The position numbers were made by a program, and so were the translations under genes. DNA of 15,698 bases from Eubacterium sp. (GTDB lineage Bacteria; Bacillota_A; Clostridia; Lachnospirales; Lachnospiraceae): positions 1 through 15,698 of the forward strand of contig JAMPGN010000089.1 of NCBI GenBank assembly GCA_023663915.1. Direction: 5' to 3'. The notes under the pieces are model-generated. The model was not told the origin of the DNA. It did no database searches and saw only the letters and a list, made by a program, of their open reading frames with translations. The stretch's first letter is position 1; every line of letters begins with the position of its first letter. Positions 1,176 to 13,534 of the stretch are shown here, in pieces.

Positions 1176-1193
1176 GATATGCCGGAGGGAAAC

Positions 1194-3014
1194 ATGGTTA
1201 CAGAAGTGAGGATTCAGGATATTTTATGGCCTAAGGACGGGATCTGCACGGACGTGGAGATGTACTTTCATTCTAACTATAAGAGAAGCATTGTCTGGGA
1301 AGAGGATATCTGTATCCTGTTTCGCAAGGGCGGGGTCGTGACAACGGACACCTATTTTAACAGTCTGACGATCGAAAAATGGAGGAAGTATACAGAAGCA
1401 GGCGCAATACGGCTCACATTGTTTCTGCAGGGAAAATGTAACGTAAGCCTGTGCTGGAAGCAGAAGATCAATGACAGATATGTGGAGAGGGAACTGAAAA
1501 ACAGCACGATCGATGCGGCGCAGCGGACGACGGTTACGCTGGAATATCCAGAGGAAACAAAGGGTATGTTCTATTTCCGCATAGAAGCGCTGGAAAAAGG
1601 GGCGAAACTCTATGGCGGCTATTATGCGACCGAGATCGAGGAGACGCAGCTTCGTCCCGTGAAGCTTGGCATCGTGATCTGTACCTATAAGCGGGAAGCG
1701 TACGTGTGCAATAACATCAGACTGCTGAACCGGGATATCATAGAGAACCCGCAAAGCCCGCTCTATGGTAGCGTGGAGGTCTTTATCTCGGATAACGGAC
1801 ATAGCCTGGACGAATATGGTCTGCAGAGCGGGAACGTACATATTGTGCCCAATAAAAACGCGGGCGGTGCGAGCGGATTTACCAGAGGTCTGATCGAAAT
1901 CCTAAGGCGGCCGGATCAGAAGATCACACATGCGCTGCTGATGGACGACGATGTGATCGTGGACACAGCGTCCATCCTGCGCACGGCGGTTATGCTTGCC
2001 CTGTTAAAAGAGGAATACCGCACTGCTTTTATCGGCGGCGCGATGCTGCGCTCTGACCAGAGAAATATACAGGTAGAGTCCGGCGCAGCCTGGAATGCAG
2101 GGAATCTTGTCTCGCTCAAAGCCGGTCTGGATCTGCGGCTGTGGCAGAACTGTCTGATCAATGAGCAGGAGGAATACAGGGAGTTTAACGCATGGTGGTA
2201 TTGCTGTCTGCCCATGGAGCTGGTCAGTGAGGACAATCTTCCGTTACCAATTTTTATACGCGGCGACGATTTAGAGTACGGACTGCGGAATATGAAGACG
2301 CTGATCCTGCTGAACGGGATCTGTGTCTGGCACGAGCCTTTTGAAAATAAATATGCATCTTATCTGGAATATTATATTATCCGCAACCGGCTGATCGATA
2401 ACAGCTTTCATTTTCCGGGCTGGGGCAAGAAGGAGCTGGTGCGGGAACTGCTCCGGGAATATCGACGGGAGGGGTATCTGTACCGGTACAAGAACGTATC
2501 GCTTTTTATCTGGGGCATCCGGGATTTCCTAAAGGGGATCGACTTCCTGGAACAGACGGATGCGGAAGCGCTGCATAGAGAGATCATGGCGTCCGGTTAT
2601 CGGGCGCTGCCGGCGGAACAGCTGGCTGTCCCCTTCTACTATAGGGAGTATGAGAGAGGACGCAAGGAAAAGCATTCGGCATTCCACGAAGTGGTGCGGC
2701 GGCTTACCTTGAACGGCTATCTGCTGCCGGCGAAGCATGTGCGGACGGTGCCCATGGCGCAGCCGAGACCGGAGTTCGTCTGGCGGGCGCGGACGATTCT
2801 CTTCTATGACATCGTGGAAAATAAAGGTTTTGTGACGCACAGGAGTCTGCGTACTTTTATCAGACAAGGGCTGGAAGTGCTCCGTATGATCTGTGTGATC
2901 TGGGTTAAGTATGATCGGGCGAAGCAGAGTTATATCGACCGTGGGGACGAGCTTAGACGGCTTGCATTCTGGGAGAAGTACCTTGGGATAGGAGGGGTGG
3001 CAGATGAAGTATGA
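1194..3014 (+). CDS. galactofuranosyltransferase GlfT2-like glycosyltransferase
   Basis: The 606-residue product resembles mycobacterial GlfT2 (637 residues), the processive UDP-Galf transferase that builds galactan. An N-terminal beta-rich domain (about 1-155) is followed by a GT-A domain starting at LGIVICTYKR (158-167), with ISDNG (198-202), NAGGASGFTRG (222-232), the DDD metal motif (251-253), GDDLEYGLR (357-365) and W379-H380, matching the layout of GlfT2's Asp catalytic residues and C-terminal His. A helical C-terminal region of about 200 residues follows. ATG 1194 is chosen because GGAGG (1184-1188) is 5 bases upstream; the in-frame ATG at 1179 overlaps the region before that site. The last 11 bases overlap glf, indicating translational coupling. 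Linkage type and acceptor cannot be read from sequence. Confidence 0.88.
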   Translation: MVTEVRIQDILWPKDGICTDVEMYFHSNYKRSIVWEEDICILFRKGGVVTTDTYFNSLTIEKWRKYTEAGAIRLTLFLQGKCNVSLCWKQKINDRYVERELKNSTIDAAQRTTVTLEYPEETKGMFYFRIEALEKGAKLYGGYYATEIEETQLRPVKLGIVICTYKREAYVCNNIRLLNRDIIENPQSPLYGSVEVFISDNGHSLDEYGLQSGNVHIVPNKNAGGASGFTRGLIEILRRPDQKITHALLMDDDVIVDTASILRTAVMLALLKEEYRTAFIGGAMLRSDQRNIQVESGAAWNAGNLVSLKAGLDLRLWQNCLINEQEEYREFNAWWYCCLPMELVSEDNLPLPIFIRGDDLEYGLRNMKTLILLNGICVWHEPFENKYASYLEYYIIRNRLIDNSFHFPGWGKKELVRELLREYRREGYLYRYKNVSLFIWGIRDFLKGIDFLEQTDAEALHREIMASGYRALPAEQLAVPFYYREYERGRKEKHSAFHEVVRRLTLNGYLLPAKHVRTVPMAQPRPEFVWRARTILFYDIVENKGFVTHRSLRTFIRQGLEVLRMICVIWVKYDRAKQSYIDRGDELRRLAFWEKYLGIGGVADEV

Positions 3015-4098
3015 CTATCTGATCGTCGGCGCAGGACTGTACGGAGCCGTATTTGCACAGGAAGCCAAAAGGAAAGGGAAAAGCTGTCTGGTAATCGACA
3101 GACGGGCGCATATCGCCGGCAATATCTATACGAAAGAGGTAGAGGGGATACAGGTACATGTATACGGGGCACATATTTTCCATACTTCGGATCAGAAAGT
3201 GTGGGATTATGTAAACCAATTTGCGGCATTTAACCACTATGTCAATTCCCCGCTGGCGGTCTATCGGGACGAGCTGTATAATCTGCCCTTTAATATGAAT
3301 ACTTTCAGTAAAATGTGGGGCATACGGACGCCGCAGGAGGCAAAGGATATCATTGCAGGACAGATCGCTGATTTGAAGATTACCAAGCCGCGTAATCTGG
3401 AAGAGCAGGCGCTTTCCCTGGTGGGAACAGACGTATATGAAAAACTGGTCAAAGGGTATACGGAGAAACAGTGGGGACGAAGCTGCACCGAGCTTCCGGC
3501 TTTTATCATCAGGCGGCTGCCCCTGCGGTTTACTTACGACAACAATTATTTCAATGACAGATACCAGGGCATTCCGATCGGCGGATATACGGCGATGGTC
3601 GAAAGGATGCTGGAGGGTGTTGAAGTAAAGCTGGGTGTTGATTATTTGGAGCACAAAATGGAATTTGACGGTATGGCGGACAGGGTTATCTATACCGGAC
3701 AGATTGATCGTTATTTTGATTATTGCGAAGGCGTGTTGGCGTACCGAAAGGTGCGTTTCGAGCAGGAAGTGCTGGACTGCGATAATTACCAGGGGAACGC
3801 TGTCGTCAATTACACGCAGCGGGAGGTGCCATACACGCGGATCATCGAGCACAAGCATTTCGATTTCGGCGCCCAGCCTGTGACGGTAATTTCCAGGGAG
3901 TATCCTGCGGAGTGGCATAAGGGAGAGGAACCATATTATCCGGTCAATGATGAGAAGAATAACGCCATCTATGAAGCATATCGGAAGCGGGCGGCGAAGG
4001 AACAGAACGTGATCTTCGGGGGCAGGCTTGGCGAATACCAGTACTACGATATGGATAAGGTGGTCGGCAGGGCGCTGGCGATGGCGGATCGTGAGTGA
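3004..4098 (+). CDS. glf: UDP-galactopyranose mutase
   Basis: This flavoenzyme interconverts UDP-galactopyranose and UDP-galactofuranose, supplying the Galf donor. The 364-residue product starts with the FAD-binding Rossmann segment YLIVGAGLYG (5-14), carries the acidic end of the second beta strand (VIDRR, 30-34) and HIAGN (36-40). It has YGAHIFHT (54-61), a family hallmark, then GYTEKQWG (151-158) and the active-site region RFTYDNNYFNDRYQGIP (175-191). Length and motifs match bacterial Glf throughout. GGAGG at 2991-2995 precedes ATG 3004 by 8 bases. The gene overlaps the GlfT2-like gene by 11 bases, so donor synthesis and donor use are coupled. Its TGA is followed 35 bases later by the AT-rich membrane-protein gene. 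Confidence 0.97.
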   Translation: MKYDYLIVGAGLYGAVFAQEAKRKGKSCLVIDRRAHIAGNIYTKEVEGIQVHVYGAHIFHTSDQKVWDYVNQFAAFNHYVNSPLAVYRDELYNLPFNMNTFSKMWGIRTPQEAKDIIAGQIADLKITKPRNLEEQALSLVGTDVYEKLVKGYTEKQWGRSCTELPAFIIRRLPLRFTYDNNYFNDRYQGIPIGGYTAMVERMLEGVEVKLGVDYLEHKMEFDGMADRVIYTGQIDRYFDYCEGVLAYRKVRFEQEVLDCDNYQGNAVVNYTQREVPYTRIIEHKHFDFGAQPVTVISREYPAEWHKGEEPYYPVNDEKNNAIYEAYRKRAAKEQNVIFGGRLGEYQYYDMDKVVGRALAMADRE

Positions 4099-5881: not shown

Positions 5882-6607
5882 ATGGATAAATTATTTATTG
5901 TAATACCGGCATATAACGAATCGGAAAATATCAGATCGGTCATAGAAGACTGGTATCCGGTGATAGAACAATACAGCGGAGGCGGCGCGTCGAGGCTGGT
6001 GATCATAGACGACGGCAGCAGGGACGATACATATGCGATTATGCAGGAGCTGGCAACGAAACGACCGTTACTGCAGCCGCTTACCAAGCCAAACGGCGGG
6101 CATGGCGCAACGGTTCTATATGGGTATCAGTATGCACTAGAAAATGGAGCGGATTATATCTTTCAGACGGACTCGGACGGACAGACGCTGCCGGAGGAGT
6201 TTCATCAGTTCTGGGAAAACAGAAAGCGGTATCGTGCGGTGATCGGATATCGGAATCATAGAGAGGACGGCTTCTCCAGAATATTGGTCACGAAGACGCT
6301 AAAGCTTGTGCTGCGGCTGGTATTTAGTCTGAATGTCACGGATGCAAATACGCCGTTTAGGCTGATGGACCGTGAGGCGCTTGCAGAATACCTTCCGGAT
6401 ATTCCTAAGGATTTTAACCTTTCCAATGTCATGCTGACCGTGCTGTTATTATACAACAAGGAAACGGTAAAATTTATTCCCATTACATTTCGTCCGCGCC
6501 AGGGCGGCGTAAATTCGATCAATCTGCCTAAAATCATAAGAATCGGCATGAGAGCGGTCAAGGATTTTCGGACGATTAAAAAAGGAATGAAGCGGCATAA
6601 CAGATAG
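5882..6607 (+). CDS. DPM1-like GT2 glycosyltransferase (polyprenyl-phosphate sugar synthase)
   Basis: The 241-residue product has the GT2 fold: FIVIPAYNE (5-13), VIIDDGSRDDT (40-50), KPNGGHGATVLYG (69-81), the metal-binding DSDGQ (97-101) and GYRNHREDG (122-130). A basic C-terminal segment with RQGGVNSI follows. These motifs match dolichol/polyprenyl-phosphate mannose or glucose synthases, which load one sugar onto undecaprenyl phosphate at the inner face. There is no C-terminal membrane domain, so it must act as a peripheral enzyme. It starts 20 bases after the GT-C-like gene with only a weak AGAGA-type ribosome site, consistent with readthrough coupling. The pair makes sense as donor synthase plus outside-facing transferase (inference). 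The sugar is not determinable. Confidence 0.85.
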   Translation: MDKLFIVIPAYNESENIRSVIEDWYPVIEQYSGGGASRLVIIDDGSRDDTYAIMQELATKRPLLQPLTKPNGGHGATVLYGYQYALENGADYIFQTDSDGQTLPEEFHQFWENRKRYRAVIGYRNHREDGFSRILVTKTLKLVLRLVFSLNVTDANTPFRLMDREALAEYLPDIPKDFNLSNVMLTVLLLYNKETVKFIPITFRPRQGGVNSINLPKIIRIGMRAVKDFRTIKKGMKRHNR

Positions 6608-6666
6608 GAATATGAGGTTATGGACAGATAAGGAGCAGGCGGAAATGATGAAGCGGGAGGAGCAGG

Positions 6667-7713
6667 TTGAAATTGAGGGAAAAGAATCTGGGGGGGGGGC
6701 AGAACGCAGGTATCGTGCAGAGAGATTCTGCGCTGGATATGATGAAGGGCTGGCTGACTGTTCTCATGGTATTATCGCATTTAACCTATGTGATTCCATT
6801 TGATGGGATCGACAAAATAAATAGCTATGTGAATTTAACCACTTTTTCGGGGTTTATGTTCTGCTTTGGCTATGTATGCCGGAGCGCGTATATTGAAAGC
6901 AAACGGCAGAACGTGGATAAAAGGTTAATCAGAGGAGCATTTAAGTCGTTATTGGCATTTTACATCTGTGGGATAGGATTTTATATGCGGGGAACGGCGC
7001 TGGATTGGGGAAAAGTACTTTTTTTACAGGTCATTCCGACACTGACAGAGTTTCTGGTCAGTTTTAGCCTGATGTATATCATGATATTGATTTTCAGAAA
7101 GCAGTTAAAAGAACTGTCATGGAAAAGTTGTATTTTGACTGTGATAGCCTCATTGATTATCACAGCAGTATTTCCGTTTGAGATGATTAGCAGCCCAGTG
7201 ATGGGAAGTATAGTAGGAACGACGGCGTACTGTTCGTTTCCATTGCTGGCGTATCTTAGTTATTTTTTAATAGGAAGTCTGCTTGCAAAATATCAAATCA
7301 CATGGAACAGCTGGTTATTCATAACAGTATGTATTTCGACGGGGATATTTTTTGTTTTCTGCAAAGTAAACGGAAGGCTGCCGGGAAGGTTTCCGCCGAC
7401 GGTATTATGGGTGTTAGGCGGTAGTCTGTTTATTTATTTGTATTATTGCTTTTTCAAGCTGATGTCACAAAAAGGAAAAGAAGTGACGCCGCTTATTTTT
7501 ATAGGGAAACATACGCTGGTGTTTTTGGTCGTAAGCAATTTGTTGATCTTTTCGGTATGGAATCATCTGGTTGCTGAAAGAATATGGGAAACCATATCCA
7601 TGAATCGATGGGGATGCAGATATATGATCTATATTATAATAACGTTTGTTCTGTCGTGGGGTGTGATCAGAATAAATGAAAAGAGAAAGCAAAGCGCCCT
7701 TGTCATGAAATAA
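6667..7713 (+). CDS. membrane acyltransferase (acyltransferase-3 / O-acetylase-like)
   Basis: The 348-residue product has about ten membrane helices and begins its conserved part with RDSALDMMKGWLTVLMVLSH, the D-x-x-K...H pattern of acyltransferase family 3 proteins that O-acetylate surface glycans. In the frame as sequenced the start is TTG 6667, with GGAGG at 6656-6660 six bases upstream. Ten consecutive G at 6690-6699 fall in codons 8-11. A second start, ATG 6645 (AGGAG at 6631-6635), reads into the same tract in another frame and would enter the acyltransferase if the tract lost one G or gained two. Expression may therefore be phase-variable, or the tract length may be a sequencing artefact. 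It follows the DPM1-like gene by 59 bases. The substrate is probably the exported polysaccharide (inference). Confidence 0.75.
   Translation: MKLREKNLGGGQNAGIVQRDSALDMMKGWLTVLMVLSHLTYVIPFDGIDKINSYVNLTTFSGFMFCFGYVCRSAYIESKRQNVDKRLIRGAFKSLLAFYICGIGFYMRGTALDWGKVLFLQVIPTLTEFLVSFSLMYIMILIFRKQLKELSWKSCILTVIASLIITAVFPFEMISSPVMGSIVGTTAYCSFPLLAYLSYFLIGSLLAKYQITWNSWLFITVCISTGIFFVFCKVNGRLPGRFPPTVLWVLGGSLFIYLYYCFFKLMSQKGKEVTPLIFIGKHTLVFLVVSNLLIFSVWNHLVAERIWETISMNRWGCRYMIYIIITFVLSWGVIRINEKRKQSALVMK
6690..6699 (+). repeat. G10 homopolymer tract at the acyltransferase 5' end
   Basis: Ten consecutive G, the longest G run in the window, lie 23 bases into the acyltransferase reading frame. G tracts of this size are classic slipped-strand mispairing sites. 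Translation starts in two frames lie upstream (TTG 6667 and ATG 6645), each with a purine-rich ribosome site. Confidence 0.9.
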
Positions 7714-8024: not shown

Positions 8025-8068
8025 GAAAGAAAAACGTTTGCTAAAACGTGCGCGAAGGGTGTGGATAT

Positions 8069-9040
8069 ATGGACGAAAAAATGAGGACACAGTGGCACTC
8101 GGCATTTTATGCCGCTACACGTCTTGAACTGAGGAGCAATGTGCAGGATTTGATATTTGAAGATGAATTTCTATTGAATACAAAGCCCTTGCAGGTGGAT
8201 CTGCTTGTGATCAAGAAGACGAATGCTGTAAAGATTCAGAATGAAATAGGGCGGCTTTTTGAAGGGCACAACCTGATCGAGTACAAATCGCCAGACGATT
8301 CGCTTGGCATAGACTGTTTTTTTAAAACATATGGATACGCATGTATTTATAAGGCATCTTCGGGGAAAGAGGACGGGATTACAGTTGATGACGTCACCAT
8401 TACCTTTATCCGATATTCCAAGCCGTACAAGCTTATAAAATGGCTGCAGGAAAATGAATATGGTATTGAAGAAAAATTTCCGGGAATATATTATATAAGT
8501 AAGAAGGGCGGCTTTAAAATACAGATCATTGTATCCAAATATATCAGTTCGCAGAATCATAGCTGGCTGGCATATTTGAAGCATGGTCTGCAGGAGGCGG
8601 AAGCCATAGCATTATTAAAAGAGGCGAAGGCACTCAGGAATCTGGCAGAGCATGAATATGCAGACTCTGTGCTGCAGGTAGCTGTACAGGCGAATCGGGC
8701 AGTCTTTAACAAAATCAAGGAGGAATCGGAAGATATGTGCGAGGCATTGAGAGAGCTGATGGCTCCGGAATTTGAACAGGCGATAGAAGAGACAGAAAAA
8801 AGGGTAACGGAAGAGGTCACAAAGAAAGTAACAAAAGAAGTGACAAGGGAAGTAACAAAAGAAGTAACGGAAGAAGTAACAAAAGAAGTAACGGAGAAAG
8901 GCATCAAAATATTTGTCATAGACGGCGTCGAGGAGGGCAGAACGGAGCAGGTCATCATAGATAAGCTCGTGAGGCTTTTCCATATTGATGAAAGCGCTGC
9001 GAGGGAATATTTTACCAGATATTCAACCGCGACAGTATAA
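8069..9040 (+). CDS. Rpn-like PD-(D/E)XK nuclease-family protein with KEVT repeats
   Basis: The 323-residue product belongs, by recollection, to a protein family abundant in Lachnospiraceae and related to Rpn/PD-(D/E)XK transposase-type nucleases. The likely active site is D44 (QVDLLVI) with E71-Y72-K73 (LIEYKSP), followed by LGIDCFFKTYGYACIYKA (79-96). A helical region with ADSVLQV and MCEALRELM (223-231) follows, then eight 4-residue VT[EK][EK] repeats (246-277) forming a charged coiled segment, and a short C-terminal module. ATG 8069 has GAAGGG at 8054-8059; the GTG at 8048 is less likely. It has its own promoter and terminator and lies between inverted repeats, so it looks like an inserted cargo gene rather than a polysaccharide gene. 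DNA cleavage is a family inference. The family is sometimes given unrelated metabolic names in databases; nothing here supports those. Confidence 0.75.
   Translation: MDEKMRTQWHSAFYAATRLELRSNVQDLIFEDEFLLNTKPLQVDLLVIKKTNAVKIQNEIGRLFEGHNLIEYKSPDDSLGIDCFFKTYGYACIYKASSGKEDGITVDDVTITFIRYSKPYKLIKWLQENEYGIEEKFPGIYYISKKGGFKIQIIVSKYISSQNHSWLAYLKHGLQEAEAIALLKEAKALRNLAEHEYADSVLQVAVQANRAVFNKIKEESEDMCEALRELMAPEFEQAIEETEKRVTEEVTKKVTKEVTREVTKEVTEEVTKEVTEKGIKIFVIDGVEEGRTEQVIIDKLVRLFHIDESAAREYFTRYSTATV
8804..8899 (+). repeat. eight 12-base coding tandem repeats
   Basis: Eight imperfect copies of a 12-base unit (consensus GTAACAAAAGAA) encode residues 246-277 as repeated V-T-K-E. The unit keeps the reading frame, so copy number can vary without breaking the gene. 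The amino acid pattern predicts a highly charged helix. Confidence 0.9.
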
Positions 9041-9075
9041 CTGATATGGCGAAACCGATTAAATAATGATTTGAG

Positions 9076-9133
9076 AAAACTTGATGTAAAGTATGAAATT
9101 GTCAATATAAATTCATATTTTGCATCAAGTTTT
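9076..9133 (+). terminator. long AU-rich hairpin terminator after the PD-(D/E)XK gene
   Basis: AAAACTTGATG (9076-9086) pairs perfectly with CATCAAGTTTT (9123-9133). The inner bases continue to pair imperfectly down to a loop near 9103-9106, giving an almost fully palindromic 58-base element. The sequence after it is TATTTTATATATT. It begins 36 bases after the stop codon. Its left arm contains the right copy of the 22-bp inverted repeat, so it may be a mobile-element end as well as a terminator. Confidence 0.75.
9084..9105 (-). repeat. right copy of 22-bp inverted repeat
   Basis: Exact reverse complement of 7814-7835. It lies inside the hairpin at 9076-9133 downstream of the PD-(D/E)XK gene. 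Confidence 0.85.
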
Positions 9134-9158
9134 TATTTTATATATTTAGAAAATTACT

Positions 9159-9298
9159 CCAAAGTGTGGAAGAATGCGGAGCATTCTTCTCAAGATAATT
9201 TGCGAAGCAAATTTTCTTGTGTAATAGGAAATTCCGCCAAAGAGTGGAAGAATGCGAAGCATTCTTCTCAAGATAATTTGCGAAGCAAATTTTCTTGT
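9159..9298 (+). repeat. two 62-bp direct repeats, each a double GAA-loop hairpin
   Basis: The copies at 9159-9220 and 9237-9298 differ at only two of 62 positions, with a 78-base period. Each contains GAAGAATGC-GAA-GCATTCTTC (GGA loop in copy one) and then CAAGA-T-AATTTGC-GAA-GCAAATT-T-TCTTG, a 12-bp stem with one mismatch. Both hairpins close with the GCGAAGC-type triloop known to be unusually stable in DNA. They occupy the leader of the next gene and end 18 bases before its ATG. Too few copies, and no spacers, for a CRISPR array. Confidence 0.9.
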
Positions 9299-9316
9299 AG
9301 GAAAGGAGAGATTTGT

Positions 9317-11671
9317 ATGACAAATATTCTGGAAACGCTTTCATCAGAGCATAAATTATGTACCGGTTGCGGCGCATGCCGCAATATCTGTCCTGTGGAC
9401 GCCATTACGATGTGCGCAGACCGCGAGGGCTTTATGCATCCCAAGGTGGAATCGGAGAGATGTGTCGATTGTGGGTTATGTGAAAAAAATTGTCCGGTAT
9501 TACATCCCAAATATGCAAATCTGAAGAAACCAGAATGCTATGCAATGATGGCGGCAGATGAAGAACGATGGACAAGCGCAAGCGGAGGGTTTGTTCCCTT
9601 AGTGGCAAGATGGATCCTAAAGAAAGGCGGAGTCGTATATGGAGCAGCGTGGGATCAGGAATGGAACGTGTGTCATATAGAGATTGAAGATGAGGCGGAA
9701 TTATATAAAATAAAAGGCTCCAAATATTTGCAGGGGAGCGTTGGGAAGACCTATCGGTCGGCAAAGAAAAAATTACAGGACGGAAAATGGGTGTTATTTA
9801 CGGGATTACCTTGTCAGATTGCGGGATTGTACAGCGTACTGGGGAAAATGAATACAGAGAAGCTGGTCACAATAGATATTTTGTGTCATGGCGCTCCATC
9901 CCACAAAGTATTCAGAAAATATATAGAAGAAAATTATGATCTCGAAACATTGGAACGGTTTGAATTTAGGGATAAATCCGTCTTTGGATGGTCATCAACG
10001 ATTAATTGCTACTTCACAGATGGAAAGGAAACACATATAACGGGACAGGAAGACAGCTATTATAGGGCATTCCTGCCCTGTATGATCATGCGTCCATCTT
10101 GTGGACAGTGCGCTTTTTCCAGACTGCCGAGGCAGGGAGATCTTACGGCGGGCGATTTCTGGGGTGTGGAGCGAACAGAACCAAAATGGAACGACAAAAA
10201 GGGAACTTCAGCAATCCTTGTGAATAATAAAAAGGGCAAAAAAGTTTTGAACGCGTTGTCATCGCAGATGAAGCTTTTAGAGCCGGTATCCATGGAGGCG
10301 ATCACACATATCAATAAAACGGTGGAGCAGCCTTTTAAAAGTCATTCCGGAAGAAAACACTTCTTTAGCAGTATGGACATAAAGCTCTTTAACGAGCTGG
10401 TAGAATGCGCCTTGTCGCACAAGTATGATATCGGCATAGCAGGTTTATGGTATGGGATCAATTATGGCTCTATTCTGACCTATTACGCATTATACAATGT
10501 TGTGCGGAGCTTAGGGTACGATGCCGTAATGCTTCCGAAACCGAACAGTCTGTGGGAAGAACGTTTCAACAGTCCGGATACCATAGCGCAGAAGTTTATA
10601 TGGAAACATTGCAATGTGTTCCTGCCATATCCGACGCAGAATGATTATTATTTTGCCAATGACAGCTGCAGAGATTTTCTTTTGGGCTCGGATGTTATCT
10701 GGAATTATGAAATTTGCGGCAGACAAAGCGATATGTTTTTCTTTCTCGACTGGGTGGAGAACGGGCATAAGAAAATAGCCTATGCCGCTTCTTTCGGCAA
10801 TGGCACATGGGGACCAGAGGCATATGAGCAGTCGGCATCCTATTATTTAAAAAAGTTTGATGCTATCTCCATAAGAGAACGTGAGATGATAGAACCGGCA
10901 CGGGAAAAAATTGGAAGAAATGACATCGTGAATGTTCTGGATCCGGTTTTTTTATGTCCGGTGCAATTGTATGATGAGGTCATACAAGATATCAAAAGAG
11001 AGAATAGAACGCCTTTTGTATTTGCATATATTTTGAGACATGGTCATCCAGAAGATAATAAGCGTCTATTGGAATTGGTCAGAAAGCTTTGCCACCTGGA
11101 AGCCTTTATTTGTGCAAATCCAAATGAATACGACAAAATGAAGAAAGCGTATGGGGAAGATGTGCTTCCTGTTCTGTCTGTAGAAGAGTGGATTTATTTT
11201 ATGAAAAATGCCGCTTTTTATCTGGGAGACAGTTATCATGGTCTTTGTTTCAGTCTTATATTCCATAAGCAGTTTATCATTGTCTACAGACCGGCAAAGG
11301 TGAATGCTTCAAATGAAAGATTCAAAAGCTTATTAAGGATTGTCGGTCTTGAGGAAAGGCTGCTGGAGGATGAGACGGTCGATCTGCAGAAGGCAGCGGA
11401 ATTGATCCAGAAGCCGATCGATTGGGAGGCAGTAGACGAAAGACTAGATCAGGCGCGGACATTTTCTTATCAGTGGCTGAAAAATGCGTTGGAGGAACAG
11501 ACGGGGAATCGATATACAGTTGAAGAGATCATAAAGGATAAGGAAAACAGAAAGCTGTTTCAAATGTATAACGAGCTGCATAAGAAAAATAGTATGCTCT
11601 TTAAGGAACTGGAAGAAATAAAGCAGCAGATCACTGAAATGCGTGCAGAACATCGGTTTAGGAAAAGATAG
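9317..11671 (+). CDS. fused ferredoxin/FrhB-like reductase and polysaccharide pyruvyl transferase
   Basis: The 784-residue product joins two enzymes often encoded separately in polysaccharide loci. Residues 1-65 carry two 4Fe-4S motifs (C15, C18, C21, C25 and C49, C52, C55, C59). Residues about 70-345 match the coenzyme F420 hydrogenase/dehydrogenase beta-subunit (FrhB-like) fold, with LPCQIAGLY (164-172) and further cysteines C255, C262, C265. Residues about 368-700 match polysaccharide pyruvyl transferase (WcaK/CsaB type): IAGLWYGINYGSILTYY (374-390), GSDVIWNYE, DPVFL and the hallmark DSYHG (638-642). A coiled-coil tail (about 745-780) ends it. The start is ATG 9317, with GGAG at 9305-9308; upstream in-frame codons run through the hairpin repeats and are not coding. 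The pyruvyl half would add pyruvate ketal to a glycan; the redox half's substrate is unknown, and F420 itself need not be involved. Confidence 0.85.
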   Translation: MTNILETLSSEHKLCTGCGACRNICPVDAITMCADREGFMHPKVESERCVDCGLCEKNCPVLHPKYANLKKPECYAMMAADEERWTSASGGFVPLVARWILKKGGVVYGAAWDQEWNVCHIEIEDEAELYKIKGSKYLQGSVGKTYRSAKKKLQDGKWVLFTGLPCQIAGLYSVLGKMNTEKLVTIDILCHGAPSHKVFRKYIEENYDLETLERFEFRDKSVFGWSSTINCYFTDGKETHITGQEDSYYRAFLPCMIMRPSCGQCAFSRLPRQGDLTAGDFWGVERTEPKWNDKKGTSAILVNNKKGKKVLNALSSQMKLLEPVSMEAITHINKTVEQPFKSHSGRKHFFSSMDIKLFNELVECALSHKYDIGIAGLWYGINYGSILTYYALYNVVRSLGYDAVMLPKPNSLWEERFNSPDTIAQKFIWKHCNVFLPYPTQNDYYFANDSCRDFLLGSDVIWNYEICGRQSDMFFFLDWVENGHKKIAYAASFGNGTWGPEAYEQSASYYLKKFDAISIREREMIEPAREKIGRNDIVNVLDPVFLCPVQLYDEVIQDIKRENRTPFVFAYILRHGHPEDNKRLLELVRKLCHLEAFICANPNEYDKMKKAYGEDVLPVLSVEEWIYFMKNAAFYLGDSYHGLCFSLIFHKQFIIVYRPAKVNASNERFKSLLRIVGLEERLLEDETVDLQKAAELIQKPIDWEAVDERLDQARTFSYQWLKNALEEQTGNRYTVEEIIKDKENRKLFQMYNELHKKNSMLFKELEEIKQQITEMRAEHRFRKR

Positions 11672-11692: not shown

Positions 11693-12787
11693 ATGTTTTT
11701 GATCAGTATAGCAATGTTTTTGATCGCTCCGTTTACGGCATGGAAAATCCATAGCAGGGTACAGGGATATAAGGGACAAAAAAGCATCGGTATGTTTATT
11801 GCATATTTTATCCTATTAAACGCCTGTACATTTGCTGTATCCGAATACCGGGGCATAGATATGCGTCAATGGAATCCATTTACCACGACGATGTCATACC
11901 GGATAAAATATATATCCTTCAGCACTTTTCTGGGTGTGGTCTCAGCAGGGGTATTGCACAGCCTCTCAAGCAGGGGCATGACCTTAGAGGAAATGATTCG
12001 CTATTCCACAAAATTTTTTCATGACATGAAGAAATATTTTCCCTATGCCGTCCGCGCTGCCAAGGCGGATTTAAAGGCAGAAGTGAGCAACTCCCTATTG
12101 GACTGGCTGTGGTGGCTGATCGAACCGTTTTGCATGATGTTGATTTACACGGTTATGTTTGGCATTGTATTTGATGCGGCGGAACCGTATTTTCCGGTCT
12201 TTATTTTTATCGGTATTACCATGTGGAGTTTTTTTACCAGAGGAGTTACGGGCAGTGTGGAAATGGTACGCGCCAACAGGGAAATTGTTACAAGAATCTA
12301 TCTGCCGAAATATATTCTGCTATTTTCAAAGCTTATGGTGAACGGATTTAAGATGCTGGTATCTTTTGCGGTGATTGCGGTTATGCTGGTTGTATTTCAC
12401 GTTAGGATAACAGGCAATGTGTTGTATTTCTTACCGATTCTGCTGGTTCTTTTCCTGCTGACTTTTGGCGTGGGAAGTATACTCATGCATTATGGCGTGT
12501 ATGTGAATGATTTATCTTATATTACGGGGATCCTGCTTACCATGATGATGTATCTGACGGGCACATTTTATGCGGTAGCGAAGCAGATACCGGCGCCCTT
12601 CGGATCGGTACTGGAACGGGCGAATCCGGTCGCGTTTCTGATTGCTGAGATGAGAAATGTGGTACTTTATGGGCAGGCGCCCGACTGGAAGCTTTTGCTG
12701 ATCTGGTGCGGGGCGTCCATTCTTTTGATCTGGATCGGGGTGGTTACCATCTACCGAAATGAAAATGCTTATGTGAAGGTGATATAG
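11693..12787 (+). CDS. ABC-2 type polysaccharide export permease with N-terminal extension
   Basis: This is the membrane subunit of an ABC exporter for lipid-linked polysaccharide (Wzm/TagG type). Residues about 100-364 look like a normal permease of some 260 residues: the entry segment KKYFPYAVRAAKADLKAEV, six membrane helices and the late ANPVAFLIAEMRNVVLYG region. Residues 1-100 are an extra piece with three hydrophobic segments (about 1-17, 33-50, 74-91) not usual for this family. No internal ATG near residues 96-101 has a well-spaced ribosome site, while AAGGG precedes ATG 11693 at good distance, so the long form is favoured. The stop abuts the ATG of the ATPase gene without a gap, indicating a coupled pair. 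It follows the pyruvyltransferase by 21 bases. Confidence 0.88.
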   Translation: MFLISIAMFLIAPFTAWKIHSRVQGYKGQKSIGMFIAYFILLNACTFAVSEYRGIDMRQWNPFTTTMSYRIKYISFSTFLGVVSAGVLHSLSSRGMTLEEMIRYSTKFFHDMKKYFPYAVRAAKADLKAEVSNSLLDWLWWLIEPFCMMLIYTVMFGIVFDAAEPYFPVFIFIGITMWSFFTRGVTGSVEMVRANREIVTRIYLPKYILLFSKLMVNGFKMLVSFAVIAVMLVVFHVRITGNVLYFLPILLVLFLLTFGVGSILMHYGVYVNDLSYITGILLTMMMYLTGTFYAVAKQIPAPFGSVLERANPVAFLIAEMRNVVLYGQAPDWKLLLIWCGASILLIWIGVVTIYRNENAYVKVI

Positions 12788-13534
12788 ATGCAGAATAAGG
12801 GCAATGCGATCGAGTTACATGACGTATGTATCAACTACAGTATTATGCAGAACATATCGATCCGCAAGACTTTTTTACATAAAAAGAAGAAAAACGAGGT
12901 GTTTGAGGCGGTAAAGCATGTATCGTTTGCTGTGCGTGAGGGAGATATCCTGGGGATCATCGGCAAAAACGGCAGTGGGAAATCCACGCTGCTGAAATCC
13001 ATTGCGGGTGTATTTTCACCGAATTCTGGCATCATAGATCTGAAAGGACATTCCGTATCGCTCATGTCGCTGGGCGTAGGGTTTAAGGATTTGCTTTCTG
13101 GACGTGAAAATATTATTCTGTCGGGTATGCTGCTTGGATTTTCGGAGAAAGAGATTGCGGAAAAATCACAGGCAATTATCGAGTTTGCGGAAATTGGAGA
13201 TTTTATCGACAGACCAGTGCGGACGTATTCCAGCGGTATGTACTCCAAACTTGCCTTTGCCATTACGGCGATGTTGGAGACGGATATCATGCTTGTGGAC
13301 GAGGTGTTGAGCGTCGGGGACGAGCAGTTTAGGCGCAAGAGTCTGGCGAAAATGAAAGAGCTGATCAATGACAGAAGGCGGACGGTGCTGATTGTCTCAC
13401 ATAGTATTCCGACGCTACAAGAACTGTGCCATCAGGTGTTATGGCTGCATGACGGGGAGGTCAGGGAGCTGGGAGATACGCATGAGGTGCTGGGGCATTA
13501 TGAGACGTACATGATGGGATATCCTATGCAATAA
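12788..13534 (+). CDS. ABC transporter ATPase for polysaccharide export (Wzt/TagH type)
   Basis: The 248-residue product energises export with the preceding permease. It shows Walker A GKNGSGKST (59-67), the signature YSSGM (147-151), Walker B IMLVDE (167-172) and the switch His205 in IVSHS. The N-terminal HKKKKNEVFEAVKHVSF segment is typical of the polysaccharide-export subfamily. The protein ends soon after the nucleotide-binding domain. It lacks the C-terminal carbohydrate-binding domain of Wzt proteins that recognise a capped O-antigen chain end, so export is probably not cap-dependent (family inference). AAGGTGA at the end of the permease gene provides the ribosome site. Confidence 0.93.
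   Translation: MQNKGNAIELHDVCINYSIMQNISIRKTFLHKKKKNEVFEAVKHVSFAVREGDILGIIGKNGSGKSTLLKSIAGVFSPNSGIIDLKGHSVSLMSLGVGFKDLLSGRENIILSGMLLGFSEKEIAEKSQAIIEFAEIGDFIDRPVRTYSSGMYSKLAFAITAMLETDIMLVDEVLSVGDEQFRRKSLAKMKELINDRRRTVLIVSHSIPTLQELCHQVLWLHDGEVRELGDTHEVLGHYETYMMGYPMQ

Follow-up and report, generated by a model that had tools for sequence, protein, structure and literature searches.

Does the run of ten G near the 5' end of a membrane acyltransferase gene simply encode three glycines, or is it a length-variable switch that sets whether, and from which start codon, the enzyme is translated? We consider this question for a 15,698-nucleotide stretch of DNA, referred to here as the window, in the light of the reading frames that meet at the run, of the homologues of the enzyme and of the long G-runs present in related genomes.

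Results

Reading frames at the poly-G tract

The acyltransferase is encoded on the forward strand by an ORF of 348 residues (6667–7713), which matches the Pfam family PF01757 (Acyl_transf_3) with 40.4 bits against a cut-off of 31, over profile positions 2–324 of 326, and has no NCBIfam match. The Pfam match begins at residue 21, after a G10 homopolymer on the same strand (6690–6699) that codes for Gly-Gly-Gly in this frame. This homopolymer is the sole G-run of at least eight on both strands of the window. It supplies three overlapping 8-mers of G, compared with a mean of 0.58 in shuffled windows, and three or more were found in 8 of 200 shuffles; judged within the window, the run exceeds chance only weakly.

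Three forward-strand frames lead into the tract. The first opens at TTG 6667–6669, preceded by a ribosome-binding-like GGGAGG (6655–6660), and is in frame with the acyltransferase when the tract holds 10 (or 13) G; a second in-frame TTG (6673–6675) aligns by eye with the first residue of the homologue P0005 (MRDKNLRGGG). The second frame opens at ATG 6645 or ATG 6648, the former with its own ribosome-binding-like site, AAGGAG (6630–6635), and as sequenced it extends over 52 codons (6645–6803) to a TGA at 6801–6803. The third is closed by two TGA stops within 6668–6676 (6668–6670 and 6674–6676). By frame arithmetic, the acyltransferase is entered from TTG 6667 or TTG 6673 with G10 or G13, and from ATG 6648, 6645 or 6612 with G9 or G12. 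With G8 or G11, the entering frame is shut by TGA 6674 (also by TGA 6668) with no start codon beyond, which corresponds to an OFF state. G9, G10 and G11 thus present three different entering frames, and the gain or loss of a single base would change what is translated.

The original prediction had described the ten G at this position, the in-frame TTG 6667, the other frame from ATG 6645 to the stop at 6801–6803 and the passage of that frame into the acyltransferase with nine or twelve G. Each of these points is borne out, with ATG 6612 as an additional entry. Its proposal of a choice between starts stands in that there are two possible ON frames, and has to be widened by the OFF frame at 8 or 11 G, which it had left out.

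A promoter-spacer placement between –35 and –10 elements was not found at the window locus, where the tract sits inside an ORF. No second assembly of the locus was found in the sequence collections searched, the plasmid collection searched with it gave no match, and the 135 pattern matches in viral contigs included no relative of it.

Gene neighbourhood of the acyltransferase

The acyltransferase belongs to a forward-strand gene run that includes two family-2 glycosyltransferases, one of them upstream of it (5882–6607; 84% identical in the related locus L001, described below). The same run contains a galactofuranosyltransferase-2-like protein (1179–3014; PF17994, Glft2_N), a UDP-galactopyranose mutase (GLF; 3004–4098) and, downstream, an ORF that combines FrhB/FdhB_C and polysaccharide pyruvyl transferase (9071–11671). 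An ABC-2 permease, assigned by Pfam, and the ORF after it, interpreted as its ATPase, follow on the same strand (11693–13534) and are conserved in L001 and in a second related locus, L002. This galactofuranose-type gene run suggests a surface polysaccharide with galactofuranose, which the window acyltransferase would O-acylate.

Two other features of the neighbourhood deserve mention. At 9147–9298, a tandem repeat with a unit of 78 bases (1.9 copies, 93%) and palindromic pieces falls in the predicted N-terminus of ORF 9071–11671, which makes the TTG start of this ORF doubtful. ORF 8048–9040, with 12-base repeats at 8804–8900, separates the acyltransferase gene from that of the pyruvyl transferase; it has no Pfam or NCBIfam match and no counterpart in L001, and we take it to resemble Rpn-type nuclease/transposase proteins.

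Homologues and closest relatives

The set of close homologues comprises 11 proteins, the window's own and ten others at 63–71% identity. In five of the 11 (P0001, P0004, P0005, P0006 and P0008), Gly-Gly-Gly occupies the corresponding position ahead of the conserved RD-ALDMMKGW, and three (P0002, P0003 and P0007) are without the Gly run. P0010 and P0011 start only at MKGW/MMKGW, past the Gly run, as a frameshifted ORF would, and P0009 shows proline-rich nonsense just ahead of the conserved RD-ALDMMKGW part. The residues that lead into the run in the TTG frame of the window, LREKNL-GGG (REKNLGGG), have their counterparts in RDKNLRGGG (P0005), RDKILRGGG (P0006), EKFARGGG (P0008), NKNIGGG (P0004) and NKNIGG (L001). 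Judged by these residues, it is the TTG frame that has been conserved, and because the homologue N-termini match it, G10 as sequenced most likely represents the ON state.

A scan of GTDB representatives for the acyltransferase returned 24 loci, among which L001 and L002 alone are close (66–67% identity), the others standing at 28–36%. L001 has the gene run in the same order as the window, with 66–84% protein identity; its acyltransferase opens with an ATG in the equivalent frame and carries an interrupted run, G7-A-GG. This interrupted tract, together with the three of 11 close homologues that are without the run, implies that the switch is not universal in the subfamily. Downstream of the L001 gene run, a G9 run (L001:12193–12201) is located in another ORF (11702–13021).

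The L002 contig becomes C-rich at the expected tract position, and L002 appears to be the species of P0009. According to the accessible text of PMC9187656, Illumina reads can fail past G-tracts, a failure termed 'G's end'. Such a failure can explain both why L002 ends in C-rich sequence and why the N-terminus of P0009 is odd, and we therefore rejected this break as proof of a length mixture; it suggests no more than the presence of a tract at this position.

The genomes of L001 and L002 (G001 and G002) belong to one Lachnospiraceae genus of 77 genomes, in six of which the acyltransferase profile was matched, twice closely (649 and 620 bits) and four times distantly (139–157 bits). The level of protein identity between the window and L001 suggests that the window's organism lies in or near this genus.

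Long G-runs in the genus and the family

The original prediction also called for a comparison with related genomes, and there long G-runs prove to be over-represented, with a length peak at 10 and in similar kinds of gene. Runs of at least ten G (G≥10) number 10–37 in each of 18 of the 77 genus genomes, and exceed G8 runs in each. At least five G≥10 runs are present in 35 of the 77 genomes, where they outnumber exact G8 runs (487 versus 125), whereas 36 genomes have at most three (47 versus 274 exact G8). The counts of G≥10 versus exact G8 are 19 versus 1 in G001, 27 versus 2 in G002 (some of whose runs are contig-end artefacts), 37 versus 3 in G372, 28 versus 6 in G062, 33 versus 7 in G440 and 32 versus 4 in G439, in contrast with 0 versus 34 in G429 and 0 versus 54 in G433. 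Only some members of the genus therefore show the excess of long G-runs.

In a sample of 397 genomes from the family, 249 have zero G≥10 runs and 11, by eye, have ten or more. Three of these 11 belong to the genus (G001, G062 and G372) and eight lie outside it, so that the habit is neither general in the genus nor limited to it. Other Lachnospiraceae lineages may share it, with the reservation that in some of the tract-rich genomes outside the genus, e.g. G198, runs lie near contig ends. One family genome outside the genus, G148 (1.6 Mb), holds 21 G≥10 runs and may be a lineage that shows this habit independently. In a profile search, MutS scored over the cut-off in 74 of the 77 genus genomes; judged by MutS alone, loss of mismatch repair is therefore not supported as the cause of slippage in the relatives.

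Length and sequence context of the tracts

We read 172 runs of at least nine G in stretches of ten genus genomes and kept 147 of them, the other 25 lying less than 110 bases from the end of the stretch or less than 60 from an N. A further 15 listed runs (in G002, G372, G402 and G405), most of them no more than about 600 bases from the beginning of a contig or in junk sequence at contig ends, were left out. The 147 tracts comprise 5 of G9, 107 of G10, 27 of G11, 5 of G12, 2 of G13 and 1 of G15, G9 being under-counted because most tracts came from a search for G≥10. Over 664,968 bases (both strands, overlaps unmerged), G-run counts fall from 339 at G5 through 30 at G6 to 1 at G7 and 1 at G8, and then stand at 107 at G10; the counted loci were chosen for holding long runs, while the valley at G7–G8 is unselected.

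This distribution bears on a first alternative, namely an assembly miscount in which the true run has nine G, the gene starts plainly at ATG 6645 and no switch exists. Short-read data are troublesome at G-runs, as the accessible text of PMC9187656 indicates, and ATG 6645 does possess a good AAGGAG site. However, the homologues (P0005, P0006 and L001) read the TTG frame ahead of the run, and a G10 peak over ten related genomes would be hard to obtain from random miscounts, so that we consider a miscount unlikely.

Tract length also differs between species. Flank-matched orthologous tracts hold 10 G in L132, L146, L213 and L218, 11 in L245 and 12 in L183; others hold 10 in L137 and L235 and 13 in L191, and the overall span between species is G9–G13. 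A GntR-family ORF begins 24 bases after the L137 run. Between two assemblies, L221 (genome G402, G11) and L173 (genome G399, G10), one G in the run is the sole difference over 3010 bases, a piece of evidence weakened by the fact that short-read assemblies can miscount a G-run and that there are two assemblies of unstated depth. In both, the run (at about 1500) stands 172 bases upstream of a CpsB/CapC gene, followed by Wzz, in a capsule-type operon.

By rough and uncurated thresholds, 60 of the 147 tracts lie in an ORF that stays open across the run, and 17 are flanked on either side by ORFs in different frames (a label that takes in plain gene junctions). Another 14 and 8 have a long frame on just one of the two sides, 9 lie in an antisense frame and 39 are intergenic. 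For the 70 tracts outside sense ORFs, a TATAAT-like hexamer (at most one mismatch) directly follows the run in 22, compared with 2 of 70 when the opposite strand is read (p 7e-6); the corresponding figures for tracts in or between ORFs are 6 of 77 and 1 of 77. TTGACA-like hexamers before the run showed no significant enrichment (13/70 versus 6/70, p 0.14). The excess of TATAAT-like hexamers points to a likely promoter-spacer class among some of the relatives' tracts. A T immediately follows the run in 115 of the 147 tracts, compared with 70 of 370 runs of G5–G7 in the same sequence (p 1e-36). This preference is also seen inside ORFs (44 of 60), and a –10 box explains only a part of it.

Genes that carry or are split by tracts

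Among the best 25 of 84 Pfam families found on 99 ORFs or pieces from the 147 tracts are Acyl_transf_3 and Methyltransf_11 (5 each), LRR_5 (4), the flagellin N-terminus, CotH, Glycos_transf_2 and FkbM methyltransferase (3 each), and MBOAT and ATPgrasp_ST (1 each). When forty tract ORFs were examined singly, 29 were matched at E 0.001 (a few of them below the curated cut-off) and 11 had no match. The matches include WcbI, sulfatase, TylF, MBOAT, FkbM, prepilin peptidase, AraC, a solute-binding protein and an ion channel, a mixture which indicates that not all tract genes are surface-glycan genes. Surface-gene enrichment among them is an impression, drawn from counts of tract genes alone.

Both open and broken frames occur at these loci. 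L151 (G10) and L237 (G12) hold in-frame Acyl_transf_3 genes in which, like that of the window, the run falls close to the N-terminus, and have an ON-like arrangement. Out of seven two-frame cases, two contain the halves of one gene in different frames across the run, according to a Pfam search of the separate pieces, and are OFF-like. In L195 (G10), PF01757 is matched over 3–177 before the run and over 176–320 after it in the other frame (23.5 bits, below the cut-off of 31). In L188 (G11), DNA_methylase is matched over 2–211 before the run and 237–322 after it, both over the cut-off. The remaining five (L248, L219, L157, L147 and L144) gave no sign of one split gene. The L195 and L188 splits are apparent OFF states, or alternatively frozen frameshifts. 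The L188 gene (L188:714–2206) is a C-5 cytosine DNA methylase in two frames at its G11 run and is a possible phasevarion switch.

These loci can be set against the second alternative, in which the window run is a fixed and invariant poly-glycine stretch, kept or tolerated for reasons of the protein itself. Such a stretch would fit the position of the run ahead of the acyltransferase domain match, and the three homologues without it do seem intact. It would not account for similar runs of the relatives in unrelated proteins and between genes, for two genes split out of frame at the run, or for the single-G difference between the otherwise identical L221 and L173, and we regard it as quite unlikely.

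Discussion

Based on the above data, we propose that the window G10 is a poly-G contingency (phase-variation) tract that switches the start choice of the acyltransferase, a reading that we consider probable. Slipped-strand mispairing is the standard cause of length change in runs of this kind. Slippage of the DNA polymerase on G10 would gain or lose a G and thereby change the start codon that reads into the acyltransferase. At G10, the enzyme would be ON through the TTG start, in the frame that the homologues conserve. With one G fewer (or two more), translation would pass to the ATG starts; with one G more (or two fewer), the entering frame would be closed and the acyltransferase OFF. The enzyme would probably acylate the galactofuranose-containing surface polysaccharide of the neighbouring genes, and the tract would make this glycan decoration vary from cell to cell. 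Slippage at the window locus, the use of the ATG starts and the acyl acceptor are what we infer from the arrangement of frames and genes.

A fixed mixture of products from transcriptional or ribosomal slippage at one DNA length (by a programmed frameshift, or with the 52-codon ATG frame serving in leader-peptide control) could draw on the two overlapping frames with good ribosome-binding-like sites that flank the run, but is quite unlikely given that the start region has no special RNA fold (z –0.51), that orthologous tracts differ in DNA length and that ribosomal slippage would be meaningless for the 70 of 147 relatives' tracts placed outside sense ORFs by rough thresholds, 22 of them with a –10-like hexamer against 2 on the opposite strand.

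A contingency tract at the window locus, as the original prediction had supposed, therefore stands as the best reading, and in view of the related-genome tracts this locus is apparently one of many. It is most likely part of a larger set of poly-G switches, or phasome, in related Lachnospiraceae. On the scale of the genus, we lean towards a phasome comparable to that of Campylobacter, with as many as 37 G≥10 tracts in a single genome, in MutS-bearing bacteria. It would combine frame switching of glycan acyl-, methyl- and glycosyltransferases, flagellin, LRR/CotH surface proteins and regulators with promoter-spacing of capsule and regulator operons, and would extend to at least one DNA cytosine methylase. 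The window would be a three-state member of this set (TTG-ON, ATG-ON and OFF).

The Lachnospiraceae are a family common in the gut. If the proposal is true, a group among them varies its surface by slippage as Campylobacter and Neisseria do, and phage sensitivity, antibody recognition and strain tracking could be affected. Short-read metagenomes would break or mis-annotate the tract genes, and existing deep data should contain G-tracts of mixed length. This would also be a case of mononucleotide phase variation in bacteria that bear MutS. Among the literature matches listed, from a search whose scope left aside most subscription papers and preprints, there is no account of Lachnospiraceae with poly-G phase variation; the accessible part of a 2025 review of phase variation (PMC11868660) contains neither the word Lachnospiraceae nor the word Firmicutes. 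Poly-G contingency loci as such are already known, and the Lachnospiraceae set is large and apparently undescribed.

In Campylobacter, the reading frame turns surface-modification genes ON or OFF and, to our knowledge, MutS and MutL are missing. C. jejuni NCTC11168 has 29 polyG/polyC loci with at least seven repeats, according to the accessible text of PMC4965091. The tracts considered here are like those of C. jejuni in the presence of many G-runs per genome, in frame-based ON/OFF switching and in affecting surface-modification genes. They differ in the lineage, which is Lachnospiraceae, in the presence of MutS in nearly all of the genus genomes and in that some tracts stand right before a –10-like hexamer. 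At the lic1A-type loci of Haemophilus influenzae, the length of a repeat selects alternative start codons and yields more than two expression states. The window resembles lic1A in that repeat length would choose among starts, but the repeat is tetranucleotide there and mononucleotide here, where use of the ATG starts is putative.

G-tracts in an O-glycan acetylase and a glycosyltransferase of Neisseria are mentioned in the accessible text of PMC9187656. As far as this text goes, Neisseria shares with the window an intragenic G-tract for phase-variable acylation of a surface glycan, the acceptor being putative here, and differs in being another kind of bacterium with another gene context. The same text describes a G-tract switch of a sortase-dependent pilus in Bifidobacterium breve UCC2003, a commensal, and mentions further G-tracts there, both intragenic and in promoter spacers. 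In B. breve, as proposed here, G-tract slippage joins or splits ORFs; the phylum and the genes are different, and the present genus is distinguished from what that text covers by its 10–37 runs of G≥10 in each of 18 of 77 genomes, in genes for glycan modification, flagellin, adhesins and regulators, among others.
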